Shown: positions 1 through 39,462 of the stretch, one piece after another | Position numbering within the stretch: position 1 is the first letter of the stretch | How the letters are laid out: every line of letters starts with the position of its first letter | Source of the DNA: an uncultured Oscillospiraceae bacterium | GTDB taxonomy: Bacteria; Bacillota; Clostridia; Oscillospirales; Oscillospiraceae | Direction: 5' to 3' | Length of the DNA stretch: 39,462 nucleotides | Assembly (NCBI GenBank): GCA_947589545.1 | Contig: CANQBA010000038.1 | Location: 1-39,462, forward strand | The notes under the pieces: model-generated | What the model was told of the DNA's origin: nothing | Database searches by the model: none | Seen by the model: only the letters and a program-made list of their open reading frames with translations | Position numbers and translations under genes: made by a program

Positions 1-14
1 AAATCTGGCGTTGT

Positions 15-77
15 GTTATATAATGAGCTTGTTTTCAAATTCAGCGCTTGAATTTGAAAAAGTACACTTTTTCAAAC
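15..77. promoter_or_regulatory. Palindromic upstream region of the first SLH gene; part of a putative invertible promoter, apparently OFF
   Basis: Two overlapping inverted repeats are visible. One at 32-60 has perfect 12-nt arms (TTTTCAAATTCA and its complement) around GCGCT. The other at 53-76 has perfect 11-nt arms (TTTGAAAAAGT and ACTTTTTCAAA) around AC. Bases 11-77 match the reverse complement of 35487-35553 at 54 of 67 positions, so the element lies in the opposite orientation to the one before the right-hand surface-protein gene. The equivalent promoter reads on the minus strand: CTGAAT (complement of 39-44), an 18-nt spacer, TATAAC (complement of 15-20), pointing away from the gene. 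Because TTATATAA is itself palindromic, a plus-strand TATAAT also exists at 19-24. Its -35 would fall at or before base 1, so a forward promoter cannot be excluded. The partner repeat would lie left of the window. Confidence 0.6.
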
Positions 78-90
78 TGGAGGTAACGAA

Positions 91-3000
91 ATGAAACGGC
101 AAATTTGCAAGCTTCTGGCGATCCTGTTGGCAATCACCATGGTCGCGGCGTTGGTGCCGGGTATGGCGCTGGCTGCTGGCGACGGTACGGCTACCGGGAC
201 AATGGACGGAGCTGCGTTTATCAACTCCGCCAAGGACGGCAAGATCACCCTCACGGGCGACGTGACGCTGACAAGCGCGGCAAATGTCTCGGGCAAGTTG
301 GAGATCGACTTGGCGGGTCACAAGCTGACAAACACGATCCAAGGATCTTCCACTGGCGGCATAAACTGTGTTATTATTCTCAATAATAAGGCGGCTGTTT
401 TGACTGTCACCGACAGCGATACCCAAAAGAGGGGCGTGATCGTCGGCGGCGACAGAAAAGACAGCGAGATAACGAGCTACAACACCGTAGACGTAAGCGG
501 CGCGATTTTGGTCAAAACCGCCGGGGCGACGCTGACCGTCGACGGTGCAAAGATCAAGGGCGGCGACGCCTATGCCACAAAGTACGCGGATCACGCAATT
601 TACGTCAGCGCGACCAACAACACCGTTGAAACGAAGATCAACGTCATCAACGGCGCAGAAATCATTGGCGGTACCGTACATAAGAAGGAAGCCGGAAATG
701 ACAGCCCGAAATCTACTGCCACGCAGGAATCCGGCGCCGGCATCAAAATCAATCCTTGGCCAGCTACCACTAACCGCAGCGTCAAGCTCGTGGTTGACGG
801 CGCTACCGTCACCGGCGGCGGTGACGATACGGGCACCTCTGCCGGTGTGGGAATTAATGTGCAGCATGCGGAAGTAGAGATCAGAAATAAGTCCGTTATC
901 TCCGGCGGAAAGTGCGACAAAGCGACCAGAAGCAACGACGGAGAAGCGATAGACGCATATACCAATACAAAGTTGGTTATCAACGGCTCCACGGTCACCG
1001 GCGGCACGGGCGGTAACGCGATCAGCGCTACCAGCGCCACCGATGAAACGGAGATCATTGATTCCGCCATTACGGGCGGTAATGGTTCAGATCCCGGCTC
1101 TGCGGTTTACTACAGCAACGGAAAACTCACGGTTAAGGGCAGCAAGCTGTATGGCGGTCTGAATAATTCCAGCGATAATTCGCTTGGCTGTGGAATTGAG
1201 ATCAATTCTACTACTAAATATTACATCACCGTTGAGGAAAGCGAAATCTACGGTAGCGAATATGCAACGGGATACAGATATACTAATGGCGATAAGTTTT
1301 ACGGAAACGCCATCTATTTGATAAGTGGCAACCACAACAACGGGGACAGCAGCATTGCGCTCAAGGATACAAAGCTGTTTGCGAGGAACGACTACTACGG
1401 ACTTATCGGCGATGAAAAGACAACCAGCAATCCGCTGAACGTGACGCTTTCCGGGACTATCACCGTCCTTCACGAAAGCGGGCGCGAGGGCGTTGAGGCC
1501 GGTATCACCGGCAAGACCTTGGCAAATGTAAATATCACCATCCCCGAGGGCGAGAGCCTCGTCATTGACGGCGCTATTGGCACGGCTTCCGCTAAGGCGA
1601 CGATTGGTGCGGAAAAGACCGAAATCCCCACCGGTACCACCCTTTACATCGCGCCCAACGGAGTGGAGAACGGCGTGACCTATGAGGGCGTCACCTACAC
1701 AGGCACCGGCACGCTGGCCAAGTCCGGCGAGGGCACCATCACCGCCACCGGTACCGTGACCGCCGCGTTCTCGGAGATTGGTAAGACCGTCGGCACGATT
1801 GACGGCAAGACCTACAAGGCCGCCACGGAAGACGCCTCCATCGTCATTACGGACGGTACGGTCACAGCCGGCGACGGCTGCGTGCTTGGCGCCGAGTCTG
1901 ATGGCGTCATTCCCGTCAAAAAGCTTGCCAAATCCGACGTTACCGTTCAGACCACTGCCGGCGGCAGCGCGGCCGTGGACAAGGAAAATCCTGTGACTGA
2001 GGACGAAACCGTTACCGTCACCGTTACCGCCAACGAGGGATATGAGATCAACAGTGTGACCGCGACATCCGGGGAGGAAACAGTTGAAGTCAAGGACACC
2101 GGGGCGGAGGGCAAGTACACCTTCACCATGCCCGCCGGGGATGTGACCGTCAATGTGACCTTTGTGATGAAGCAGGAGGACGAAGAAGCGCCTCCCACCA
2201 TCGTTGACGAGCCCACAGTGGAGACGGAAATTCCTGAGGATGTGGCCCAGCAGCTTCCGGCTGATTATAATCCGGGCGAAGGATTTGACATTGACAGCAG
2301 CGAGGCCGTCCAGGAGATGGAAAACGCCGGGATCGGGGCCGTGGACACTGTACCCGAGGCGAATCTTGAAGAAGCGGTGGAAAAGCTGAAGGACGGCGAC
2401 GAGGAAACCGAGGTCTACATCCACGTTATCACCACCATCGACACGAAGGTGACGGGGTACACGGCGAGCGGTGACGAAAAGACGCTCACGCTGGAAATTG
2501 CCCCCCACTACCACATCATCGCCACCACCGCAGAGGACAAGGAGGATATTACCGATGACAATGCGGTAGAGCTGAAAAGCGCGGAGATCACCGTCACAAA
2601 GCCGGTCAACATCACCGTGCCTATCCCCGCCGATCTTGCCGGGGAAGGCAAGCCGGTCTATATCAAGCATGAAAAGGACGGCGGCAAGATCTATTGGTAC
2701 TCCGGCACGGTAACGGACGGCACCGTGACCTTCAACAACCCCCACGGCTTCTCGACCTTTACTGTTACCAACACGCCGCCCAAAGCCGCCGCGAAAATCG
2801 AAGGCACCTCCTATGAGACGCTTCAGGACGCGCTTGACGAGGTGAAGGACGGCGACGTTATCGAAGTTTTGGTTGACGATCCCCTGACGGCGACGGCCCC
2901 CGCGAAGAACGTCACCTTCACGGTGAAGGGAGCCTCTGGTATTGAACCCGATGTCACCATCCGGGATAACGGCAATTACCACGTCTCCAAGGGCGCTGAT

Positions 3001-3633
3001 GGCAAATACACCGTGACCTACGTTGCGCCTCCCGTGCCCACCACCCCGACCCCGTCCAAGCCTGACGAGCCCGACGAACCCGACACCGACCCGGTCGACG
3101 TGTTCGTGGACGTGCCCGCCGGCGCGTGGTACCGCGATGCCCTCAACTACGTGCTCGAGAACACCACCGGCGTCATCAACGGCACCGACGCGACGCACTT
3201 CTCCCCCAACGAGAAGCTGACCAGGGCCGCGTTCGCCAAGATCCTCTGGGCTATCGAGGGCAGTAAGCCCACCACCGCAGAGAATCCCTTCACCGACGTG
3301 AAGTCCGGCGACTGGTTCTACGACGCGGTGATCTGGGCCAACGCTCAGGGCATCATGCTGGGCAAGGGGGAGAACCTGTGCGCCCCCAACGACAACATCA
3401 CCCGTGAGGAAATGGCCCTGATGATCCAGCGCTGGAAGGCCGGCAAGGCCGCCGGAGAGGTCGCCTTCCCCGACGCGAAGGATGTCCACGACTGGGCCGC
3501 CGATGCGGTAGCCTGGGCCGCCGAACAGAGCTATATCAAGGGCAAGGACGACGGCAGATTCGCCCCGCTGGACTCCCTGACCCGCGCCGAAATGATCACG
3601 GTCGTGGCCCGCACCCTGGGCTTCGAGGGCTGA
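91..3633 (+). CDS. Secreted SLH-domain surface protein with beta-helix-like repeats
   Basis: A 1180-aa exported protein predicted to attach non-covalently to cell-wall polymer through three C-terminal SLH domains (about residues 1003-1065, 1066-1125 and 1126-1178; for example FVDVPAGAWYRDAL and FTDVKSGDWFYDAV). The signal peptide is MKRQICKLLAILL followed by a hydrophobic stretch ending ALA. Residues 40-530 hold degenerate VxGGT/ITGG-type repeats typical of right-handed parallel beta-helices. Residues about 614-694 resemble a 'bacterial repeat' domain (GYEINSVTA...TFTMPAGDVTVNVTF). Residues 775-950 form a module shared with the paralog at 35641. A Pro/Asp/Glu-rich linker precedes the SLH domains. 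The start is set by GGAGGT at 79-84. The beta-helix half is visibly less GC-rich than neighbouring genes. The ligand or function is unknown; adhesin or S-layer-associated antigen is an inference. Confidence 0.9.
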   Translation: MKRQICKLLAILLAITMVAALVPGMALAAGDGTATGTMDGAAFINSAKDGKITLTGDVTLTSAANVSGKLEIDLAGHKLTNTIQGSSTGGINCVIILNNKAAVLTVTDSDTQKRGVIVGGDRKDSEITSYNTVDVSGAILVKTAGATLTVDGAKIKGGDAYATKYADHAIYVSATNNTVETKINVINGAEIIGGTVHKKEAGNDSPKSTATQESGAGIKINPWPATTNRSVKLVVDGATVTGGGDDTGTSAGVGINVQHAEVEIRNKSVISGGKCDKATRSNDGEAIDAYTNTKLVINGSTVTGGTGGNAISATSATDETEIIDSAITGGNGSDPGSAVYYSNGKLTVKGSKLYGGLNNSSDNSLGCGIEINSTTKYYITVEESEIYGSEYATGYRYTNGDKFYGNAIYLISGNHNNGDSSIALKDTKLFARNDYYGLIGDEKTTSNPLNVTLSGTITVLHESGREGVEAGITGKTLANVNITIPEGESLVIDGAIGTASAKATIGAEKTEIPTGTTLYIAPNGVENGVTYEGVTYTGTGTLAKSGEGTITATGTVTAAFSEIGKTVGTIDGKTYKAATEDASIVITDGTVTAGDGCVLGAESDGVIPVKKLAKSDVTVQTTAGGSAAVDKENPVTEDETVTVTVTANEGYEINSVTATSGEETVEVKDTGAEGKYTFTMPAGDVTVNVTFVMKQEDEEAPPTIVDEPTVETEIPEDVAQQLPADYNPGEGFDIDSSEAVQEMENAGIGAVDTVPEANLEEAVEKLKDGDEETEVYIHVITTIDTKVTGYTASGDEKTLTLEIAPHYHIIATTAEDKEDITDDNAVELKSAEITVTKPVNITVPIPADLAGEGKPVYIKHEKDGGKIYWYSGTVTDGTVTFNNPHGFSTFTVTNTPPKAAAKIEGTSYETLQDALDEVKDGDVIEVLVDDPLTATAPAKNVTFTVKGASGIEPDVTIRDNGNYHVSKGADGKYTVTYVAPPVPTTPTPSKPDEPDEPDTDPVDVFVDVPAGAWYRDALNYVLENTTGVINGTDATHFSPNEKLTRAAFAKILWAIEGSKPTTAENPFTDVKSGDWFYDAVIWANAQGIMLGKGENLCAPNDNITREEMALMIQRWKAGKAAGEVAFPDAKDVHDWAADAVAWAAEQSYIKGKDDGRFAPLDSLTRAEMITVVARTLGFEG

Positions 3634-5125: not shown

Positions 5126-5544
5126 AAGCGCCCGCCTCCCGATACGGTGATTTTTCGCGCGTTTTCGCCGGTCTTCTCGATGGTCACCGTCACGGCCTCC
5201 GCCGGCATGGCGTCCGCCACGTTCTCCGTCCACTCCACACAGCATACGCCCCCGCGGGTAAGGTAGTCCTCCCAGCCGATCTCAAAGAGCTCGTCGGAGG
5301 AGCCCAGGCGGTACATATCGAAATGAAAGAGGGGCACCGGGCCGGGGTATTCGTTGACGATGGTGAAGGTGGGGCTGGACACCCGGGACGCGATGCCAAG
5401 GCCCCTGGCCACGCCGCGTATAAAGGCGGTCTTTCCCGCGCCCAGATCCCCATAAAAGGCCAGAACATCCCCGGGCAGGAGCTTTTTCCCCGTCTCCTCC
5501 CCGGCCAGGACGGTCCCCGCCTCGCTGTTTGTTTCGATGACCAC
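5122..5544 (-). CDS. tsaE: tRNA threonylcarbamoyladenosine biosynthesis ATPase TsaE
   Basis: P-loop ATPase that cycles with the TsaB-TsaD complex during t6A synthesis. It is 140 aa long with Walker A GDLGAGKT (residues 32-39), then SPTFTIVNEY and the FDMYRL and EWTENV blocks of the YjeE/TsaE family. The start is a GTG at 5544 preceded by AGGGGTG. Its stop overlaps the tsaB start by 4 nt. It is the first gene behind the SigA-type promoter at 5611-5639 and divergent from the sporulation operon. Confidence 0.95.
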   Translation of the reverse strand: MVIETNSEAGTVLAGEETGKKLLPGDVLAFYGDLGAGKTAFIRGVARGLGIASRVSSPTFTIVNEYPGPVPLFHFDMYRLGSSDELFEIGWEDYLTRGGVCCVEWTENVADAMPAEAVTVTIEKTGENARKITVSGGGRF

Positions 5545-5610
5545 GGTCTCACCCCTTTACGCGTGGATACGATCCGCTTTCGAAAGCCGCGGAACCGATT
5601 CCCGTCCGCT

Positions 5611-5639
5611 ATTATAGCAAATCGCGGCGGAGGTGGCAA
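5611..5639 (-). promoter_or_regulatory. SigA-type promoter for tsaE-tsaB-upp
   Basis: On the minus strand: TTGCCA (complement of 5634-5639), a 17-nt spacer and a perfect TATAAT (complement of 5611-5616), about 66 nt before the tsaE start codon. Confidence 0.8.
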
Positions 5640-5688
5640 GGGGGAAAATAAAAAGAGGGCGGGGGGCCGTACCGGGAGCGCGGGGCCG

Positions 5689-5717
5689 GTATATTCACGG
5701 GCCTGTCCGCATAAGCT
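5689..5717 (+). promoter_or_regulatory. SigE-type (mother-cell) promoter of the spoIIIA operon
   Basis: GTATATT at 5689-5695, a 14-nt spacer and CATAAGCT at 5710-5717 resemble the SigE consensus (ATATT, about 14 nt, CATACAAT). The spoIIIA operon is SigE-dependent in Bacillus subtilis. The site is 27 nt before the spoIIIAA start codon, which suits a short leader. Confidence 0.6.
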
Positions 5718-5743
5718 TGACCATCACAAAAGGGGGAGTGCTT

Positions 5744-6661
5744 ATGACGGAGACGGACAGATACCGGGACGCGGCGCGGCTGCTGCCGGAGACGGTGAGG
5801 CGTCGGGCCTTTTTACTGGAGGAGCGGGGACGGGCGGCGGCGGAGGAGCTGCGCCTCCGGGTGGGACAGCCCCTGTCGGTAGTCCTGCCGGAGGGGGAGC
5901 GGGAGCTGGGGGACGAGGCTGTGACGGGCCGGGAGCTTTCTCTGCTCATCGAGCTTGCCACCGGCGCCTCCGCCCAATCAGCCCGGCGGGAGCTGGCCTC
6001 CGGCTACATAGCCTGCCGGGGCGGCCACCGGGTGGGCCTGTGCGGCAGCGTCTATCTGGAAAACGGCCATATGGCGGGCTTCTCCGCCTGTACCTCCGCC
6101 GCCGTGCGCATCGCCCGGGAGAAACGGGGCGTGGCCGACGGGCTTCTCTCCGGCCTTTTCCGGGACGGACAGTTCCGCTCCACGCTGATCTGCGCCCCGC
6201 CCGGCGCCGGGAAGACCACGCTTCTGCGGGAGCTGGTGCGGGTGCTGTCCTCCCCCTCCCGCCTGTGTCCGGCCTACCGGATCTCCCTGTGCGACGAGCG
6301 GGGAGAGCTGGCCGCCCTGTGGGACGGCGCGCCACAGCTGGACGTGGGGGAGCGGACGGATATTCTGGACGGCTGTCCCAAGAGCGAGGCGGTGATGACG
6401 GTGCTCCGGGCCATGAACCCCCAGATCGTCGCTCTGGATGAGATCACCTGCCCCGCGGACACGGCGGCCATTGACCGGGCGCGCAACTGCGGCGTGGCCC
6501 TCCTGGCCACCGCCCACGCCGCTTGTCCTGACGATCTGCGGGCCCGCCCCCTCTACCGGGACATGCTCTCCGGCGGGGTGTTTGAGAATTTCATCTTCAT
6601 CAAACGGCGGGGCGGGGAGCGGACATACCAACTGACGAAGGGGGACGCGGATCTATGCTGA
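5744..6661 (+). CDS. spoIIIAA: Stage III sporulation protein AA, secretion-type ATPase
   Basis: Mother-cell ATPase energising the SpoIIIA-SpoIIQ channel that spans the two membranes round the forespore. The 305-aa length is close to the 307 aa of B. subtilis. Walker A APPGAGKTT is at residues 151-159 and Walker B IVALDEI at 228-234, with the VGLCGSVY block before the P-loop. I start at ATG 5744, behind AGGGGGAG; the upstream open frame lies in promoter DNA. The stop overlaps the spoIIIAB start (ATGCTGA), so the two are translationally coupled. Confidence 0.97.
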   Translation: MTETDRYRDAARLLPETVRRRAFLLEERGRAAAEELRLRVGQPLSVVLPEGERELGDEAVTGRELSLLIELATGASAQSARRELASGYIACRGGHRVGLCGSVYLENGHMAGFSACTSAAVRIAREKRGVADGLLSGLFRDGQFRSTLICAPPGAGKTTLLRELVRVLSSPSRLCPAYRISLCDERGELAALWDGAPQLDVGERTDILDGCPKSEAVMTVLRAMNPQIVALDEITCPADTAAIDRARNCGVALLATAHAACPDDLRARPLYRDMLSGGVFENFIFIKRRGGERTYQLTKGDADLC

Positions 6662-7421: not shown

Positions 7422-7637
7422 ATGAATGTTGACTTGATCTTTAAAATCGCCGCCGTGGGGATCCTGGTGGCGGTGCTGAATCTGCTCCTGGGCCGCTCAG
7501 GCCGGGACGAGCAGGCGCTGATGGTGACCATCGCGGGGCTTGTGGTGGTGCTGGTGGTGCTCCTGCGGGAGATCTCCTCCCTCTTTGACACCATCAAATC
7601 CCTGTTTGGCCTTGCGGGCCTGCCCCGTATACGCTGA
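7422..7637 (+). CDS. spoIIIAC: Stage III sporulation protein AC
   Basis: Small (71 aa) membrane protein with two hydrophobic helices (LIFKIAAVGILVAVLNLLL and ALMVTIAGLVVVLVVLL) and the conserved FDTIKSLFGL end, as in SpoIIIAC of the forespore channel. I start at ATG 7422 (MNVDLIFKIAAV); a longer frame adds only residues from the GC-rich insert upstream. No strong ribosome-binding site is visible before the ATG, which is odd and fits disturbance by the insert. The stop overlaps the next start (TGATG). Confidence 0.93.
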   Translation: MNVDLIFKIAAVGILVAVLNLLLGRSGRDEQALMVTIAGLVVVLVVLLREISSLFDTIKSLFGLAGLPRIR

Positions 7638-8032
7638 TGGAGCTGCTCATCAAGACGGCCGCCGTCTGCATCCCGGCGGCGTTGATGGCGGGCGTCCTCA
7701 AAAAGGACAGCCCCGCCATGGCCCTGCTCATCGCCCTGGCCGCCGGGTGCGTGGTCATAGCCACCTGCGCCGGGGCGCTGCGGGAGCTGACGGCCTTTGT
7801 CACCGAGGTGGCGGAGACGGCGGGCATCTCCAACGCCGTGCTGGCGGTGCTCCTGAAGGCCGTGGGCATCGCCCTGATCTCCCGCCTGGCCGCCGATCTA
7901 TGCCGGGACGCGGGCCTGGGGAGCGCCGGCTCCGCCGCCGAGCTGGCCGGGGCCGCCGCGGCCCTGTACGCCGCCCTCCCCCTGATGCGGGGCGTGTTTC
8001 GGATGATGAGGGAGCTTCTATGGACAAGCTGA
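7637..8032 (+). CDS. spoIIIAD: Stage III sporulation protein AD
   Basis: A 131-aa integral membrane protein with about four hydrophobic stretches, starting MELLIKTAAVCIPAALMAGV and containing DSPAMALLIALAAGCVV. This is the usual SpoIIIAD organisation. It starts within the stop codon of spoIIIAC and overlaps spoIIIAE by 13 nt, so it is coupled at both ends. Part of the mother-cell half of the feeding-tube channel. Confidence 0.94.
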   Translation: MELLIKTAAVCIPAALMAGVLKKDSPAMALLIALAAGCVVIATCAGALRELTAFVTEVAETAGISNAVLAVLLKAVGIALISRLAADLCRDAGLGSAGSAAELAGAAAALYAALPLMRGVFRMMRELLWTS

Positions 8033-9120
8033 GATTTCCCACCGCCCTGGCGGCCGTCCTGCTGACGGCCATTTTGACCGCGGGCTGTGCCCATGCCGCC
8101 GGGGAGTACGGCTGGCTGGGCCTTGACGCGCTGACCGACGCCCTTCCCGAGGCGGCCAGGGACGTGCTGGAGGCGGAGGACGGCGCGGATCCCGTCCCCG
8201 CCTCCCTGGGCCGGGTGCTCTCGGAGACGCTGGGCGGCGCCGTGCGGAGCGCGTTCCGGGCGGGCCTTGCCACGTCTGCCGCCGTCCTGGCCGCCTCCGT
8301 CCTGTGCGGCGTGGCCGGGGAGCTGACACCCGACCGGGGCAAGGGGATCGATTACGTGAATCTGGCCGGTACGGCGGCCATCGCCGTGTCGGCGGCGGGC
8401 GGCTTTACCACGCTGATGGGGGAGGCCGCGTCGGCGGTGGGGGAGCTGACGGATCTGGGGACGATGCTCCTGCCCGTGATGGCCTCCGTCTCCGCCGCCA
8501 CGGGGGCGGTGTCGTCGGGGGCGGCCAAATACGCGGCCTCGGCGCTCTTTCTGAACGTGCTGGGGACGCTCTCGAAAAAGCTGGTGATCCCGCTGATCTA
8601 CATGTACCTGGCGGCATCCCTGGGACAGGCCGCCTTCGGCGGCGGAGCCGGGGGCGTGGCGAAGCTGATCGCGGGGCTGGTGAAGCGCGCCCTGGTCATC
8701 ACGGCGCTGGCCTTCTCCGTCTATCTGGGCGCGGTAAGTCTCATCGCCTCCAGCGCCGACGCGGCGGCGGTGAAGCTCACCAGGACGGCCATCTCCACCC
8801 TCCTGCCCGTGGTGGGCGGCATGGTGGCGGACGCGTCGGACACCCTGCTTTCCGGGATGGGCGTCATCCGGGGCGCTCTGGGCGCTGCGGGGTTGGTGGC
8901 GGTGGCGGCGGTGTGCCTGGGGCCGGTGGCGCGGCTTTTGATCAACGCCGCCCTGCTGCGGTGCGCCGCCGCCCTGGCCGGAACGGTGGCTCCCCGGCCC
9001 GTCTCCGACTTCATCGCCTCGGTGGCGGAGGGGTATTCCCTGATGTTGGCCCTCACCGGCGCGGAGGCGGCCATGCTGGCCATAGCCGTGATCTCCGCCG
9101 CCAAGACGGCGGGGGGATGA
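8020..9120 (+). CDS. spoIIIAE: Stage III sporulation protein AE
   Basis: A 366-aa polytopic membrane protein of the SpoIIIA channel (B. subtilis SpoIIIAE is about 400 aa). The N-terminus (KLRFPTALAAVLLTAILTAG...AHA) is a signal peptide. An amphipathic region with LPEAARDVLEAEDG follows, then six or more membrane helices (for example FLNVLGTLSKKLVIPLIYMY). I start at ATG 8020, inside the end of spoIIIAD; the longer open frame upstream is out-of-frame spoIIIAD sequence. The run TAGC resembles a lipobox but lacks Leu at -3, so ordinary cleavage after AHA is more likely. Confidence 0.94.
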   Translation: MDKLRFPTALAAVLLTAILTAGCAHAAGEYGWLGLDALTDALPEAARDVLEAEDGADPVPASLGRVLSETLGGAVRSAFRAGLATSAAVLAASVLCGVAGELTPDRGKGIDYVNLAGTAAIAVSAAGGFTTLMGEAASAVGELTDLGTMLLPVMASVSAATGAVSSGAAKYAASALFLNVLGTLSKKLVIPLIYMYLAASLGQAAFGGGAGGVAKLIAGLVKRALVITALAFSVYLGAVSLIASSADAAAVKLTRTAISTLLPVVGGMVADASDTLLSGMGVIRGALGAAGLVAVAAVCLGPVARLLINAALLRCAAALAGTVAPRPVSDFIASVAEGYSLMLALTGAEAAMLAIAVISAAKTAGG

Positions 9121-9157
9121 GAGGCGGAAACGGCCCACGTGGGAAAGGAGGAAACGG

Positions 9158-9640
9158 ATGCTGGACATTTTGCGAAACTGGATCCTGGCTATCTGCGGCA
9201 CCGCCCTGCTGTGGGGCGTGGGGATGGCCCTGGCGGGGGAGAGGGGGCGAAAGACCCTGGGCGTCATCGGCGGCTTTGCCACCATGGCGGCTATGCTGTC
9301 CATAGCCGGGGACATAGACGCCTGGGGCGTGGGCGTGTATGTGGACCGCTACCGGGAGGAGGCGGGGGAGATCGCCGGGGAGGCCCAACGCCAGGCGGCG
9401 GCGGAGACAAGATTTATCATAGAGGAGCGGTGCGAGGCATATATATTGGACAAAGCCGGACAGCTGGGCGTTACGCTTCGGGACGTCACGGTCACGGCCA
9501 AATGGAGCGGCGAGGGTTTTTGGTACCCCGGCCGGTGTACGCTGAGAGGGGTGGAGAGCCGTGAGCTTTCAAGGGCGATAGAGGCGGAGCTGGGAATACC
9601 GCTGGAAAATCAGACATGGAGCACAGACGATGGACGTTAA
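9158..9640 (+). CDS. spoIIIAF: Stage III sporulation protein AF
   Basis: A 160-aa protein with two N-terminal membrane helices (residues about 7-27 and 35-52) and a soluble domain carrying TRFIIEERCEAYILDKA, the SpoIIIAF ring-building-motif-like domain. It has a strong ribosome-binding site (AAAGGAGG at 9145-9152). Its end overlaps spoIIIAG by 11 nt. SpoIIIAF is thought to contribute to the ring stack of the channel. Confidence 0.94.
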   Translation: MLDILRNWILAICGTALLWGVGMALAGERGRKTLGVIGGFATMAAMLSIAGDIDAWGVGVYVDRYREEAGEIAGEAQRQAAAETRFIIEERCEAYILDKAGQLGVTLRDVTVTAKWSGEGFWYPGRCTLRGVESRELSRAIEAELGIPLENQTWSTDDGR

Positions 9641-35450: not shown

Positions 35451-35490
35451 ACCCGCGTCTCCAAAACCGGATACGCGGGTGATTTTGTTT
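35451..35490 (+). terminator. Intrinsic terminator of the starch locus
   Basis: An 8-bp stem ACCCGCGT/ACGCGGGT (35451-35458 and 35473-35480) with a 14-nt loop, followed by GATTTTGTTT. The T-rich tail runs into the inverted repeat at 35487. Confidence 0.7.
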
Positions 35491-35627
35491 GAAAAGGTGT
35501 ACTTTTTCAAACTCGACAGTTGAATTTGAAAACATGTCTATTATATAATGCAGGAACTAATTTTGCAATAAAAAAATACGGAAAAATTTGCGGAAATATG
35601 TGTTTGGAAAAGTACACATTTTCAAAC
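35487..35627. promoter_or_regulatory. Putative invertible promoter segment before the second surface-protein gene
   Basis: Left element 35487-35512 (arms GTTTGAAAAGGT and ACTTTTTCAAAC round GT) and right element 35602-35627 (arms GTTTGGAAAAGT and ACATTTTCAAAC round AC) are each near-palindromes with opposite asymmetric centres (GTGTAC versus GTACAC). The reverse complement of the left matches the right at 24 of 26 positions. The 89 nt between them hold the promoter. This is the layout of a site-specific inversion switch (compare C. difficile cwpV and flagellar switches, or Bacteroides capsule promoters). In the sequenced orientation the promoter faces the gene (ON). No recombinase gene is in the window. 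Confidence 0.6.
35520..35549 (+). promoter_or_regulatory. SigA-type promoter of the second surface-protein gene (ON orientation)
   Basis: TTGAAT at 35520-35525, an 18-nt spacer and a perfect TATAAT at 35544-35549. The -35 box lies within an imperfect inverted repeat (35504-35532). Transcripts would carry the right inverted repeat as a hairpin in the leader, just before the AGGAGGG ribosome-binding site at 35628-35634. Confidence 0.75.
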
Positions 35628-35640
35628 AGGAGGGAATCAC

Positions 35641-38600
35641 ATGAAACGGCAGATTTGCAAGCTTCTGGCGATCCTGCTGGTCGTATCCATGGTCGCGGCC
35701 CTGGCTCCGGCAACGGCTCTGGCGGAGGGTGCGGCTATAACCGGTTTCACGGAGCTTCAACAAGCAGTCAAAGACGCAACGGGCACTAAGGACGACCCGA
35801 CGGTGATCACCGTCAGCGGGACGATCGAGTGCACCGGCGGCTTCGCCATCGGCAGCGGGAAGCATATCAAGCTGGTGGGCGAAGATGGCGCGACGCTCAT
35901 AAGGAAAGACGGTAATTTTACGCTTTTTACCGTCGCGGGGAGCACCGGTGATGAACCTGATTGCAGCCTGACGCTGGAAAACGTCAAAATCGACGGCAAT
36001 GGGGGAACCGGCAATCTTGTCAAGGTCGATAACGGGGGAGCCGTGACCATCGGTCAGGGCGCGGTTCTGACCAATAACGCGATTACGGTTATCTACGTCA
36101 TCGCGCAACGGGGGTATACATCCACCTGCACCATCGACGGCGGTGAGATCAGCGGCAACACGATTGAGAATTATAAAGAGTCTCCGGTGATTGAGCTCAA
36201 TGCATCCGGATCATATGGCAGCGAGAAATGCGGCAAGCTCCTGTTCACGATGAAGAGCGGAGAAATCAAAGAGAACTCCGCTTATCAGGCCACGATCCGT
36301 GACAATGGCACCGGAGATTCCACGATCACCATTGCCGGCGGTAAAATTCATGATAATACGGTTAAGGGAAACGAAAGTATTCAGGGCTGCGGCGGCGCGA
36401 TCTACGGCAACCGCAAGGTCGTGATCACCGGCGGCGAGATTTACGGAAACCATGCGGCGAAGTTCGGCGGCGCGATCTATAATCCCATGGGTGCGGACCT
36501 GGATAAAGACGGCGGGGCGTCATTGACGATTACCGGCGGTAATATTCACGACAATACGGCTGGTTCCAAGGGAAACGGCATTTATGCCTATACCCTGGGT
36601 GAGCCCTTTATCGTCGGGGGCGACGCCCAGATCGAGGGCGTCTATCTGCGCAGCAGCTCCAAGCTGTCGATCCAGTCCAAACTGACGGGGAAAATCGAGC
36701 TGGAGTGCGAAAACCCGAATCCGTACTCGAATGGCGGTCCCACCCTGATTGCCGTGCCCTATGGGGACTACACCATCACTCAGGACGATATATCCAAGCT
36801 GGAATACAAGGGCGGCGAATACGGGTTTGACTTCCGGTCGGGCAGTAAGACGGACGTTGTGATCACGCTTCCGTTCCGCAACATCAATTATGAATTGAAA
36901 AACCTGAGCAAGACGGAGGATTCCGCCACCCGTGGCAATAATTATTCGCTCAACGGCGAGTTCTATGGCTATATCACCGCGGCAGAAGGGTTTGTATTGC
37001 CGCCGCTGTCGGCCGTTACCGTGACGAAGGGCGGCGAGCCCGCCAATCCGTCGCATTACACCAAAGGATTCGACGCGCAGGGCAGGCTGATGATCACGTT
37101 CAAGAGCGGACTGTTTGCGGAACCGGGTGATGTGACGGTGACAGCCGCAGGCATCCCTGAAGACGAGGCAGTCACCGATCCTGTGGCAATGAACGTGCAG
37201 CAGACCACGTATTACACCACTGTCGACGAAGCACTGGGCGCTGTGAAGGAAGGGGAGACCGTAAAGCTCCTTAAGGACGCGGAATTTGAGGGGTTTACGG
37301 TGGGATCCAGCTTTACGCTCGATCTGAACGGATGCATCCTGACGGCGGATAAATCAGGAGGATACGCATTTGGAGTATCTACATGGTCAGGAAATGCTGA
37401 TTTGACTATTATGGACAGCAATCCCACCGCGACGCATGAGTCGATTACCGCCTTGATTCCCAATGTGCCGGAGGACGCCGAAATCACCGGCGGCATAATT
37501 TCCAACAAAAGCGGCGGCGGTATCCGCGCCCAAGTTGGCGGAACACTCATTTTGAAGGGCGGCAGCATCGCGGGGTGCGCGGGCAGCGGCGTATTTTTGA
37601 ATGGCGGCGGATCCCTCGAGATGACCGGCGGATTCATTCAGTATAATAAGAAAAAAAGCGACGATGGCGGCGGTATCTCTTATAGCGGTAAAGGGACGGT
37701 CACCATTTCCGGCGGCGCCATCGCGCACAATGAAGCCACAAATGGCGGCGGCGGGGGAATATACGTTCTTGGGACTAGCCCGGTTGCTATGACCGGAGGG
37801 AGCATTTTCGACAACACAGCGGCCATCGGTGGCGGGGTCTATCAGGATACAGGGACCAGCTTCACGATGTCGGGAGACGCCAAAATCGTAGGCAATACTT
37901 CCACGAGTGACGGCGGTGGCGTTCTGGTTAAGGATGCTTTTACCATGAACGGCGGTGAGATTTCAGGGAATACTGCGACGAAAACCGGCGGCGGCGTTTA
38001 TGTTCTTGGAGGTAAAAAAACGATCGGATCTTTCAAAATGACCGGCGGGAAGGTCACAGAGAACGCCGCAGGTGTTGGCGGCGGCGGGATCGTCTTGTCA
38101 GAAACTAGTAATTCGGTCGTCACTAATTCAGTTATTGTTGAATCAGGTGAAATCTCTCATAATACCGCCAAATACGGTGCGGGGATCTATCAGACTGCGG
38201 GAACCCTCACCATGTCCGGCGGCAGCATCAGCGACAACGCCGCGGGCGCCACGGGCGGCGGTGGAGTGTATCTCCAAGCTGGTTCCTTCGCCATGACCGA
38301 CGGCGATATTACTGGCAATACGTCAGCGAAGAATGGCGGCGGCGTATTTGCACAAGCCGGAACCCTCTCCTTGACCGGCGGATCGATCACCGGCAACACC
38401 GCGTCGGCAAACGGCGGCGGCGTATATCTGGATACCAGCGGGTCTGTTTCCCTGAGCAGTGCGCCTGTGATCAAAGAGAACACCGGCGGCGGCATCGGCG
38501 CGGGTAACCTGTACATCAACGGTACCGCTTCTTCAAGCGGCGAGAAACTGATCACCCTGACCGGGGCGCTGACAGACGGCGCGGATATCCGCCTCTATGC

Positions 38601-39462
38601 GGCTCAGGAAAAGGACGGCTTTGTCCTGGTCAAGGCGGGGGAAGCGTATACGATCACAGACGGCGACCTTGAGAAGTTCGCCTATGATGGATTGAACTAT
38701 ACCCTCGCGCTTGAAGGCGGTCAGATCATTCTGAAAGCGGTCAAGATGATCGTGGATACGCCCGCCGTTGACTTCACAGACGATAAGGGTACAGATTTTA
38801 CAGCAGATAGCTTTAACAGCACAACGAATTCTCTTCTGACGCCGGAAGTCCTGACCGAGCTGCGGGATGACATTGCGGAGCAGGACGGGTATCAGCCTCC
38901 CGAGGGTCTGGACTACATCCATGTGGAGACTAAGCTGGACATCAAAGTGACCGGCTATGAGCAAAATTCCGGCGAGGGCCGTACCGACAGCGTCCTGACG
39001 CTGGAGATCACGCCCAAGTATCAGGTGGTCGCCACCAACAGCGAAGGAAAGCCCAGCGGATCTGAGAGTGCTACCGAGAAAGTACTGAGCAAAGGCCAGG
39101 AGGGCGCGGACAAAGACGGCTGGATCGAGATGGAGGTCAAGCGCTCCGTGGCCCTCACTATCCCGCTGCCTACAGGCTTTGCCGCAGACGGCCAGATCTA
39201 CATCAAGCACACCAAGGACGGCAAGGTCTACTGGTACACCGGCACGGTATCGGACGACGCGGTGACCTTCACCAACCCCGACGGCTTCTCCACCTTTGAG
39301 ATCCGCAACACGACGACTGCCCAGGCGAAGATCGGAGAGCAGTATTATAACACCCTCCAGGACGCCGTGGACGCCGTGAAGGAAGGCGAGACGATCACGG
39401 TTCTGACCGGCGATCCCCTGACGGCGACGGCCCCCGCGAAGAACATCACCTTCACGGTGGAG
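35641..39462 (+). CDS. Large secreted beta-helix surface protein, 3' end beyond the window (paralog of the gene at 91)
   Basis: Open for 1274 codons with no stop and cut by the window edge. Signal peptide MKRQICKLLAILLVVSM...ATALA nearly equals that of the first gene. Residues about 30-1035 are a long repeat region, densest from about 610 to 960, with recurring GG(S/E)I-xx-NTA units (for example GGSISDNAAGATGGGGVYL, GGSITGNTASANGGGVYL). This is the pattern of polymorphic-membrane-protein or adhesin beta-helices. Residues 1094-1274 match the module at residues 775-950 of the first protein, including a 34-nt exactly identical DNA stretch. The missing end very probably carries a linker and SLH domains. 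Lower GC than the starch genes. Function unknown; surface antigen or adhesin is an inference. Confidence 0.9.
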   Translation, partial: MKRQICKLLAILLVVSMVAALAPATALAEGAAITGFTELQQAVKDATGTKDDPTVITVSGTIECTGGFAIGSGKHIKLVGEDGATLIRKDGNFTLFTVAGSTGDEPDCSLTLENVKIDGNGGTGNLVKVDNGGAVTIGQGAVLTNNAITVIYVIAQRGYTSTCTIDGGEISGNTIENYKESPVIELNASGSYGSEKCGKLLFTMKSGEIKENSAYQATIRDNGTGDSTITIAGGKIHDNTVKGNESIQGCGGAIYGNRKVVITGGEIYGNHAAKFGGAIYNPMGADLDKDGGASLTITGGNIHDNTAGSKGNGIYAYTLGEPFIVGGDAQIEGVYLRSSSKLSIQSKLTGKIELECENPNPYSNGGPTLIAVPYGDYTITQDDISKLEYKGGEYGFDFRSGSKTDVVITLPFRNINYELKNLSKTEDSATRGNNYSLNGEFYGYITAAEGFVLPPLSAVTVTKGGEPANPSHYTKGFDAQGRLMITFKSGLFAEPGDVTVTAAGIPEDEAVTDPVAMNVQQTTYYTTVDEALGAVKEGETVKLLKDAEFEGFTVGSSFTLDLNGCILTADKSGGYAFGVSTWSGNADLTIMDSNPTATHESITALIPNVPEDAEITGGIISNKSGGGIRAQVGGTLILKGGSIAGCAGSGVFLNGGGSLEMTGGFIQYNKKKSDDGGGISYSGKGTVTISGGAIAHNEATNGGGGGIYVLGTSPVAMTGGSIFDNTAAIGGGVYQDTGTSFTMSGDAKIVGNTSTSDGGGVLVKDAFTMNGGEISGNTATKTGGGVYVLGGKKTIGSFKMTGGKVTENAAGVGGGGIVLSETSNSVVTNSVIVESGEISHNTAKYGAGIYQTAGTLTMSGGSISDNAAGATGGGGVYLQAGSFAMTDGDITGNTSAKNGGGVFAQAGTLSLTGGSITGNTASANGGGVYLDTSGSVSLSSAPVIKENTGGGIGAGNLYINGTASSSGEKLITLTGALTDGADIRLYAAQEKDGFVLVKAGEAYTITDGDLEKFAYDGLNYTLALEGGQIILKAVKMIVDTPAVDFTDDKGTDFTADSFNSTTNSLLTPEVLTELRDDIAEQDGYQPPEGLDYIHVETKLDIKVTGYEQNSGEGRTDSVLTLEITPKYQVVATNSEGKPSGSESATEKVLSKGQEGADKDGWIEMEVKRSVALTIPLPTGFAADGQIYIKHTKDGKVYWYTGTVSDDAVTFTNPDGFSTFEIRNTTTAQAKIGEQYYNTLQDAVDAVKEGETITVLTGDPLTATAPAKNITFTVE

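Follow-up and report, generated by a model that had tools for sequence, protein, structure and literature searches.

Our analysis indicates that positions 35486-35628 of a contig from an uncultured Oscillospiraceae bacterium are very probably an invertible promoter, or inverton, and one of at least 14 alike in the genome. The window, the whole 39,462-nt stretch that was analyzed, is contig C38 of this 3.83-Mb, 148-contig draft genome (G000). It contains two copies of the element: the copy studied here (C38b) and a truncated one at its left end (C38a). In the mechanism that we propose, a serine recombinase dimer would bind each 24- to 26-bp near-palindromic site, the two sites would synapse, and exchange at the 2-bp center would flip the 91-bp interior between them. 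With the TTGCAA-17-TATAAT promoter facing the gene, transcription would leave through the gene-side site and the ribosome-binding site into the gene for a large surface protein; with the interior flipped, it would head into the distal flank. Two observations are those expected of an inverton: inverted repeats bound an intergenic segment that bears a promoter, and both orientations of this segment occur in otherwise matching sequence, in the paralogous cassettes C85 and C35b.

The coordinates of the window features are collected in Table 1. The two inverted arms are 27 nt long, 93% complementary, and separated by 89 nt. The left arm is itself a near-palindrome (halves 35487-35498 and 35501-35512), and both window sites fit the palindromic 24-nt pattern on either strand. 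Once inverted, the AC center of the right site is the GT center of the left site. These findings agree with the original prediction of inverted, near-palindromic repeats that bracket a promoter, the right one abutting the ribosome-binding site, and the TTGAAT-18-TATAAT sequence that it named is indeed present on the plus strand. That first reading missed a second promoter on the minus strand, which shares one palindromic -10 element (ATTATATAAT) with the first. Each of the two matches 10 of 12 hexamer bases, and the minus-strand promoter has the better spacer. Just beyond the distal site lies a G+C-rich hairpin, although a terminator scan with its own criteria called no terminators. We also observed a third half-site-like sequence, TTTTCAAA, between the -10 element and the nearer site (35525-35533 in the window). 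It is exact in 7 of the 14 copies of the cassette and possibly provides an extra recombinase contact or a means of autoregulation.

Table 1. Features of the two cassettes in the window and of the genes that face them
Feature	Position	Strand	Remarks
Part of the second cassette's interior (C38a)	1..52	+	-10 TATAAT at 19-24 toward gene; apparently ON; -35 off contig, promoter direction deduced from alignment
24-nt site of second cassette	53..76	+	Partner site lost at contig start
Surface-protein gene facing second cassette	91..3633	+	1180 aa; three SLH stretches (PF00395), PF18998
G+C-rich hairpin, possible bidirectional terminator	35451..35480	.	By eye; just beyond distal site
Left (distal) recombination site, putative	35486..35512	+	24-nt core 35488-35511; center dinucleotide GT 35499-35500
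Interior, 91 bp, proposed invertible	35512..35602	.	
TTGAAT-18-TATAAT	35520..35549	+	Absent from the other 12 complete cassettes
Conserved promoter TTGCAA-17-TATAAT	35540..35568	-	Directed away from gene; apparently OFF as sequenced
Right (gene-side) recombination site, putative	35602..35628	-	24-nt core 35603-35626; center AC 35614-35615
Ribosome-binding site AGGAGGG	35628..35634	+	Outside invertible interior; adjoined by right element
Surface-protein gene	35641..39462	+	ATG 35641; at least 1274 aa, leaves contig; right-handed beta-helix PF13229

The element is repeated throughout the genome. A DNA search with the 241 bases around it gave 37 matches on 13 contigs. With up to three mismatches allowed, the 24-nt site occurs 27 times in the 3.83-Mb genome, whereas the reversed pattern does not occur at all. 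Thus, the window repeats are not due to chance. The 27 sites make up 13 pairs, with a spacing of 115 bp in 12 and of 114 bp in the other, together with the single site of the second window cassette, so that the sequence points to a family of at least 14 near-identical promoter cassettes. All 13 complete interiors contain TTGCAA-17 followed by TATAAT (10 copies) or TATACT (three). When hexamer matches out of 12 are scored and a 17-nt spacer earns 0.5 more, the best score on the opposite strand is 8.5 or lower in 12 of the 13 complete cassettes and 10 in the window copy alone. We accordingly rejected TTGAAT-18-TATAAT as the conserved promoter. Within the 75 nt inspected per side, 12 of 14 cassettes, C38a included, have GGAGG and an ATG on one side, and the distal flanks of these 12, where present, have no such gene start; several distal flanks have hairpins, as judged by eye. 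The two exceptions lie on one contig: C35a is flanked by a gene start on each side, and C35b by none. Left and right center dinucleotides agree in 12 of the 13 pairs. The exception is C67 (GC versus GT), which is predicted from its mismatched centers not to flip.

The genes that face these cassettes are alike as well. All 14 gene starts encode a similar signal-peptide-like stretch, as judged by eye (one is 14 aa long before its contig ends), and those of the window genes at 91 and 35641 are among them. Some contigs of the draft end in or near cassettes; six of the genes are complete (1004-1509 aa), and eight run off their contigs. SLH domains (PF00395) were found in all six complete genes, those of C3, C35a (right side), C96, C42, C85, and C38a, and in two incomplete ones, C13 and C2. 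The remaining six incomplete genes, that at window position 35641 included, show no PF00395 match before the contig end.

The strongest sequence argument for inversion comes from C85 and C35b. The two are paralogous loci, not variants of a single locus within a population, and over 600 bp of one flank they share 97.5% identity. Their interiors are identical at 91 of 91 positions after one is inverted, compared with 28 of 91 when aligned directly, which we read as direct sequence evidence of inversion. The inner half-sites follow the interior, and the outer halves remain attached to the flank, which places the exchange around the site center. The window copy fits the same picture: relative to C3, C26, C42, and C85, its inner half-sites are swapped while the outer halves remain with the flanks, as exchange at the center predicts, the difference amounting to one base per half. 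Across the 11 complete single-gene cassettes, the promoter points toward the gene in six (C3, C96, C72, C67, C26, and C13) and away from it in five (C2, C89, C42, C85, and C38b); with truncated C38a counted, seven of 12 point toward and five away. The family would thus predict which copies are ON and which are OFF. In the sequenced state, the window copy looks OFF and the left-end copy looks ON. Since the conserved promoter of the window copy now faces away from its gene, inversion should turn that gene ON. The original prediction had inversion turning the gene off, a direction that the conserved promoter does not support. The CC/GG inner half-site is distal in eight of the 11 complete single-gene cassettes, promoter direction notwithstanding. 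Therefore, not every orientation difference between paralogs is a simple recent flip, and some of them are old, with later point changes or conversion.

We consider the small serine recombinase encoded on contig C34 the likely enzyme, a view built on sequence comparisons. The protein matches the resolvase N-terminal catalytic domain PF00239 with 101.3 bits against a cut-off of 23.3. Because Pfam matches just the catalytic domain, we assigned its recognition helix, of the class xPxGxFYx(K/R)(A/V), by position. The genome has 56 matches to PF00589 (Phage_integrase) and 27 to PF00239. Among the latter are four frames of about 200 aa, of which C34 alone has the matching helix. An own-genome search with C34 at E <= 1e-40 returned only C34 itself and a second serine recombinase, C11. 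The closest solved chain by sequence is 2r0q ("Putative transposon Tn552 DNA-invertase bin3"), which we take to be Sin resolvase, followed by gamma-delta resolvase; solved chains named plain "DNA-invertase" score below both. Domain and helix are intact in C34. The start of its gene is peculiar (L073:4641-4680), with a good ribosome-binding site followed 8 nt later by ATC as the in-frame codon, which may serve as a rare start codon or may reflect a defect or an error in sequencing. The sole standard in-frame start before the domain is a TTG upstream of the ribosome-binding site. Since no standard start lies between that site and the domain, C34 may be poorly expressed or inactive. The original prediction proposed searching the genome for the element next to tyrosine or serine recombinase genes. 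The repeated element was found, in 27 sites, and so was the linkage, in relatives; no 24-nt site was found on contig C34 itself, which ends 125 bp past the stop codon of the gene.

The linkage in relatives was approached from both directions. A scan of genome contigs for the site-pair pattern, made without reference to any protein, returned 47 loci, of which 20 were clostridial and 27 from Bacteroidota by record title. A C34 homolog (tblastn) lies beside the pair in eight of the 20 clostridial loci (L023, L035, L047, L050, L054, L060, L066, and L068) and in none of the 27 Bacteroidota loci. In seven of these eight, no more than about 20 bp separates the end of the gene from the pair, and in L060 the cassette lies upstream of the gene. 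A core-only pattern found nine loci in eight other genomes of the order, with zero in controls, and seven of the nine have a recombinase inside the 1.9- to 3.1-kb locus (three of the seven, L133, L135, and L139, are L103, L104, and L096 of the set described next). Starting from the recombinase instead, we examined 39 loci that had 190 bp or more of downstream sequence. An adjacent pair was present in 16 of them, compared with none of 68 control windows and none of 1040 shuffles. The other 23 loci had no adjacent pair by the criteria used; a looser search found core-bearing pairs in L093, L101, L109, and L111. L035 and L090 are one locus, counted in both sets. As a further control, 760-bp windows of own-genome loci, which include real cassettes, held a pair in six of 189 cases.

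Genomes with a cassette but no recombinase in the fetched locus encode one elsewhere. All seven that were searched, out of nine unlinked clostridial genomes (those of L037 and L051 were left out; L051 belongs to one isolate record set with L066, which has a recombinase), have a homolog with 70-80% identity at E <= 1e-89. At the same threshold, the search of relatives found a homolog in 12 of 60 genomes, our own included. Each of the seven has at least one homolog with a GTFYxK(A/V) helix. In L148 (F. plautii), L152 (Evtepia), and L154, the unlinked homolog adjoins its own TTTG-type pair, with spacings of 228, 115, and about 116 bp, respectively; L152 and L154 each have an imperfect second site. 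Smaller versions of the system are carried by Flavonifractor plautii ATCC 29863 and Evtepia gabavorous KLE1738. The many-copy state appears unusual among the sampled genomes. The core pattern has 10 strict matches in our genome and one or two in each of the eight other positives among 245 genomes; the arm-and-pair pattern is present in two of 394 genomes from the order, and two of 60 relatives have the single site, our own counted in both cases.

Recognition helix and site arms also tend to go together. A C34-like helix is present in seven of eight recombinases beside TTTGnAAA-arm pairs versus one of 28 others (p = 7e-6, relatedness not being allowed for in this value). L091 and L150 have a C34-like helix, yet no TTTGnAAA pair adjoins them. 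A Mantel comparison of helices with arms over 22 loci, six of which had been chosen by their arms, gave no permutation as high in 5000. Without those six and near-duplicates (14 loci), r was 0.23, with 407 of 5000 as high, and for 11 loci from genomes alone it was 0.21, with 524 of 5000 as high. Given this weakness in the unselected set, we dropped the Mantel covariation as support in favor of the helix class count. Across the family there are 22 recombinase-plus-site pairs with differing arms, which should be useful for learning how serine invertases choose their sites.

The palindromes could alternatively be a pair of operators at which a dimeric regulator loops or blocks the promoter, with no inversion at all. 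The near-palindromic form of each site and the constant 114- to 115-bp spacing, about 11 helical turns, would suit such a regulator; a near-palindrome of this size is equally what a serine recombinase dimer binds (hix/gix-type). An operator pair predicts neither a perfectly inverted interior behind a nearly identical flank nor a serine recombinase gene next to such pairs, as seen in several genomes, and it has no need of the center dinucleotides matched in 12 of 13 pairs. Put forward in the original prediction as the main rival, this explanation now appears extremely improbable. A closer competitor accepts the inversion and assigns it to another recombinase, such as a tyrosine recombinase or C11. 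The 56 Phage_integrase matches leave ample candidates for such a role, and a comparable case occurs on a Lachnospiraceae contig, where two pairs (L048:7363-7501 and L053:4538-4676) have near-identical 600-bp left flanks, identical sites, and a 91-bp interior exactly inverted. These pairs share the 139-bp geometry of the family and adjoin a tyrosine-recombinase-like gene, so they perhaps represent another enzyme class. For that reason we left them out of the inversion evidence for the family; they stay among the 20 clostridial loci, and the seven unlinked genomes include theirs. Their arms differ, however (TTTACAAACC), and their genome also encodes a serine homolog with the helix MAKGTFYGKA. 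The helix class of C34 accompanies TTTGnAAA arms in seven enzymes of eight, whereas C11 is of the xTFLRW class, whose members with neighboring pairs (L110 and L113) have CAAAA arms. We set C11 aside as the enzyme on this account and regard control by a different recombinase as quite unlikely.

Two other readings concern the present state of the system rather than its nature. The cassettes may have inverted in the past and be fossil or locked in this strain. The lack of a standard start codon between ribosome-binding site and domain in C34, the mismatched centers of C67, and the single orientation per copy in the draft assembly would all be in keeping with this. Against it, the domain and helix of C34 are intact, 12 of 13 centers still match, and at least one exchange must be recent because the interiors of C85 and C35b remain 91/91 identical after inversion. 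We judge a fossil system rather unlikely. It is also conceivable that the plus-strand TTGAAT-18-TATAAT works, in which case the window gene would be ON as sequenced and inversion would turn it OFF. In the window copy this promoter equals the minus-strand one in hexamer matches; it occurs there alone, whereas the same strand does not exceed 8.5 in the other 12 cassettes and the TTGCAA promoter is present in all 13. We give this reading little weight. The account that we prefer is therefore the one with which we began, an invertible promoter driving the gene of a large surface protein, as the original prediction had proposed. It draws its support from the identical interiors inverted behind a matching flank and from the linked serine recombinase family. 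We infer that C34 is the enzyme, that it acts in trans on all copies, and that switching takes place in living cells.

It is useful to compare this arrangement with known systems. Hin, Gin, and Cin are small serine recombinases with a short C-terminal DNA-binding tail, and their sites are near-palindromes of 24-26 bp with a 2-bp center. C34 and the sites described here have the same character. Unlike those systems, the interior is only 91 bp and contains no recombinase gene. The invertase gene within or beside the segment that typifies Hin was not seen here, contig C34 ending 125 bp after the gene, and the two are linked in some relatives. Hin-type systems also use a recombinational enhancer bound by Fis, a protein that Clostridia are not expected to have. 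Control of an entire surface repertoire by a master invertase is best known from Bacteroides. As described in the accessible portion of PMC5903667, Mpi of Bacteroides fragilis is a master DNA invertase, a serine recombinase with at least 13 invertible regions, and RecV of Clostridioides difficile, which acts on the Cdi switches, is a tyrosine recombinase. Our system resembles that of Mpi in that a small serine recombinase would serve, in trans, at least a dozen short invertible promoters that are scattered over the genome and control surface structures. It differs in its enzyme, C34 scoring 47.4 bits on the NCBIfam Mpi model NF009949, below the cut-off of 272; in its targets, which are SLH-type proteins rather than polysaccharide loci; and in that some relatives keep the cassette directly beside the invertase gene. 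In contrast to RecV and the Cdi switches, the linkage here favors a serine enzyme, a conclusion tempered by the 56 tyrosine recombinase matches in the genome. The promoter of the C. difficile gene for CwpV lies outside the inverting segment, whereas here the promoter itself appears to invert. CwpV is phase variable through inversion of a short segment before its gene, according to the accessible part of PMC2784873. Both cases thus involve a giant cell-wall or surface protein of a clostridium behind a short inverting segment. Our cassettes also resemble the invertons of a 2025 gut survey of the PhaseFinder type, short and often intergenic segments near surface genes, in the available portion of PMC11892184. 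That portion links a Clostridia group of invertons to tyrosine recombinases, and the word "serine" occurs 0 times in the main text of PMC11892184.

Overall, we lean toward a broader model in which a single serine invertase, from a family that extends across Clostridia, acts in trans to run at least 14 independent flips, exchange between cassettes rearranges genes, and recognition helix and site arms have diverged together. Contig C35 (L010 1-5100) may illustrate the rearrangement. It carries a cassette with genes on both sides and, 4.8 kb on, a cassette whose flanks are gene-less on both sides, the layout that inversion between sites of two cassettes would be expected to leave. The first of these cassettes could toggle between two genes rather than between ON and OFF. 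If the model is right, thousands of surface-protein combinations could arise in one bacterium, and individual cells could differ in the coat proteins that they display. The findings make a sequence-level case that a clostridial lineage applies master-invertase logic to SLH-type proteins. Among the literature matches listed, in the parts accessible and with subscription journals mostly outside their scope, no clostridial serine invertase family and no invertons of SLH genes are described. Jiang et al. 2019 may list some of these loci.

Several further observations concern the wider family. Recombinase homologs with adjacent site pairs occur on the IMG/VR contigs L120, L121, L124, and L125, all classified as viral, so that prophages or other mobile elements may carry the module between hosts. 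The site pattern itself matched viral contigs once (L132), with just a converging 121-aa frame nearby. Some homologs (at L091:1245-1404, L097:1271-1431, and L117:1102-1184) have inverted pairs of a different type, ATACTAATnnCCnATT, in their vicinity. L022 and L056, considered as a flipped pair, were rejected once their flanks had been oriented. In the xTFLRW class (L110 and L113), the left site falls within the last codons of the recombinase, which read KSTPFG, a tail common to L107, L109, and L111. The putative invertible segment of this class thus contains the codons for the C-terminal tail, which an inversion would exchange. The C11 recombinase (L072:6297-6909) appears to enter such a site at its contig end.

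Elsewhere in the window, the long open frames at 7597-9315 (minus strand) and 5323-6438 (plus strand) have no Pfam match at E <= 0.001, and the former overlaps a 526-aa frame on the opposite strand. Between 21001 and 31102, genes for a solute-binding protein, a permease, an alpha-amylase, and a pullulanase-type enzyme lie close together, in what looks like an ordinary starch-use cluster.
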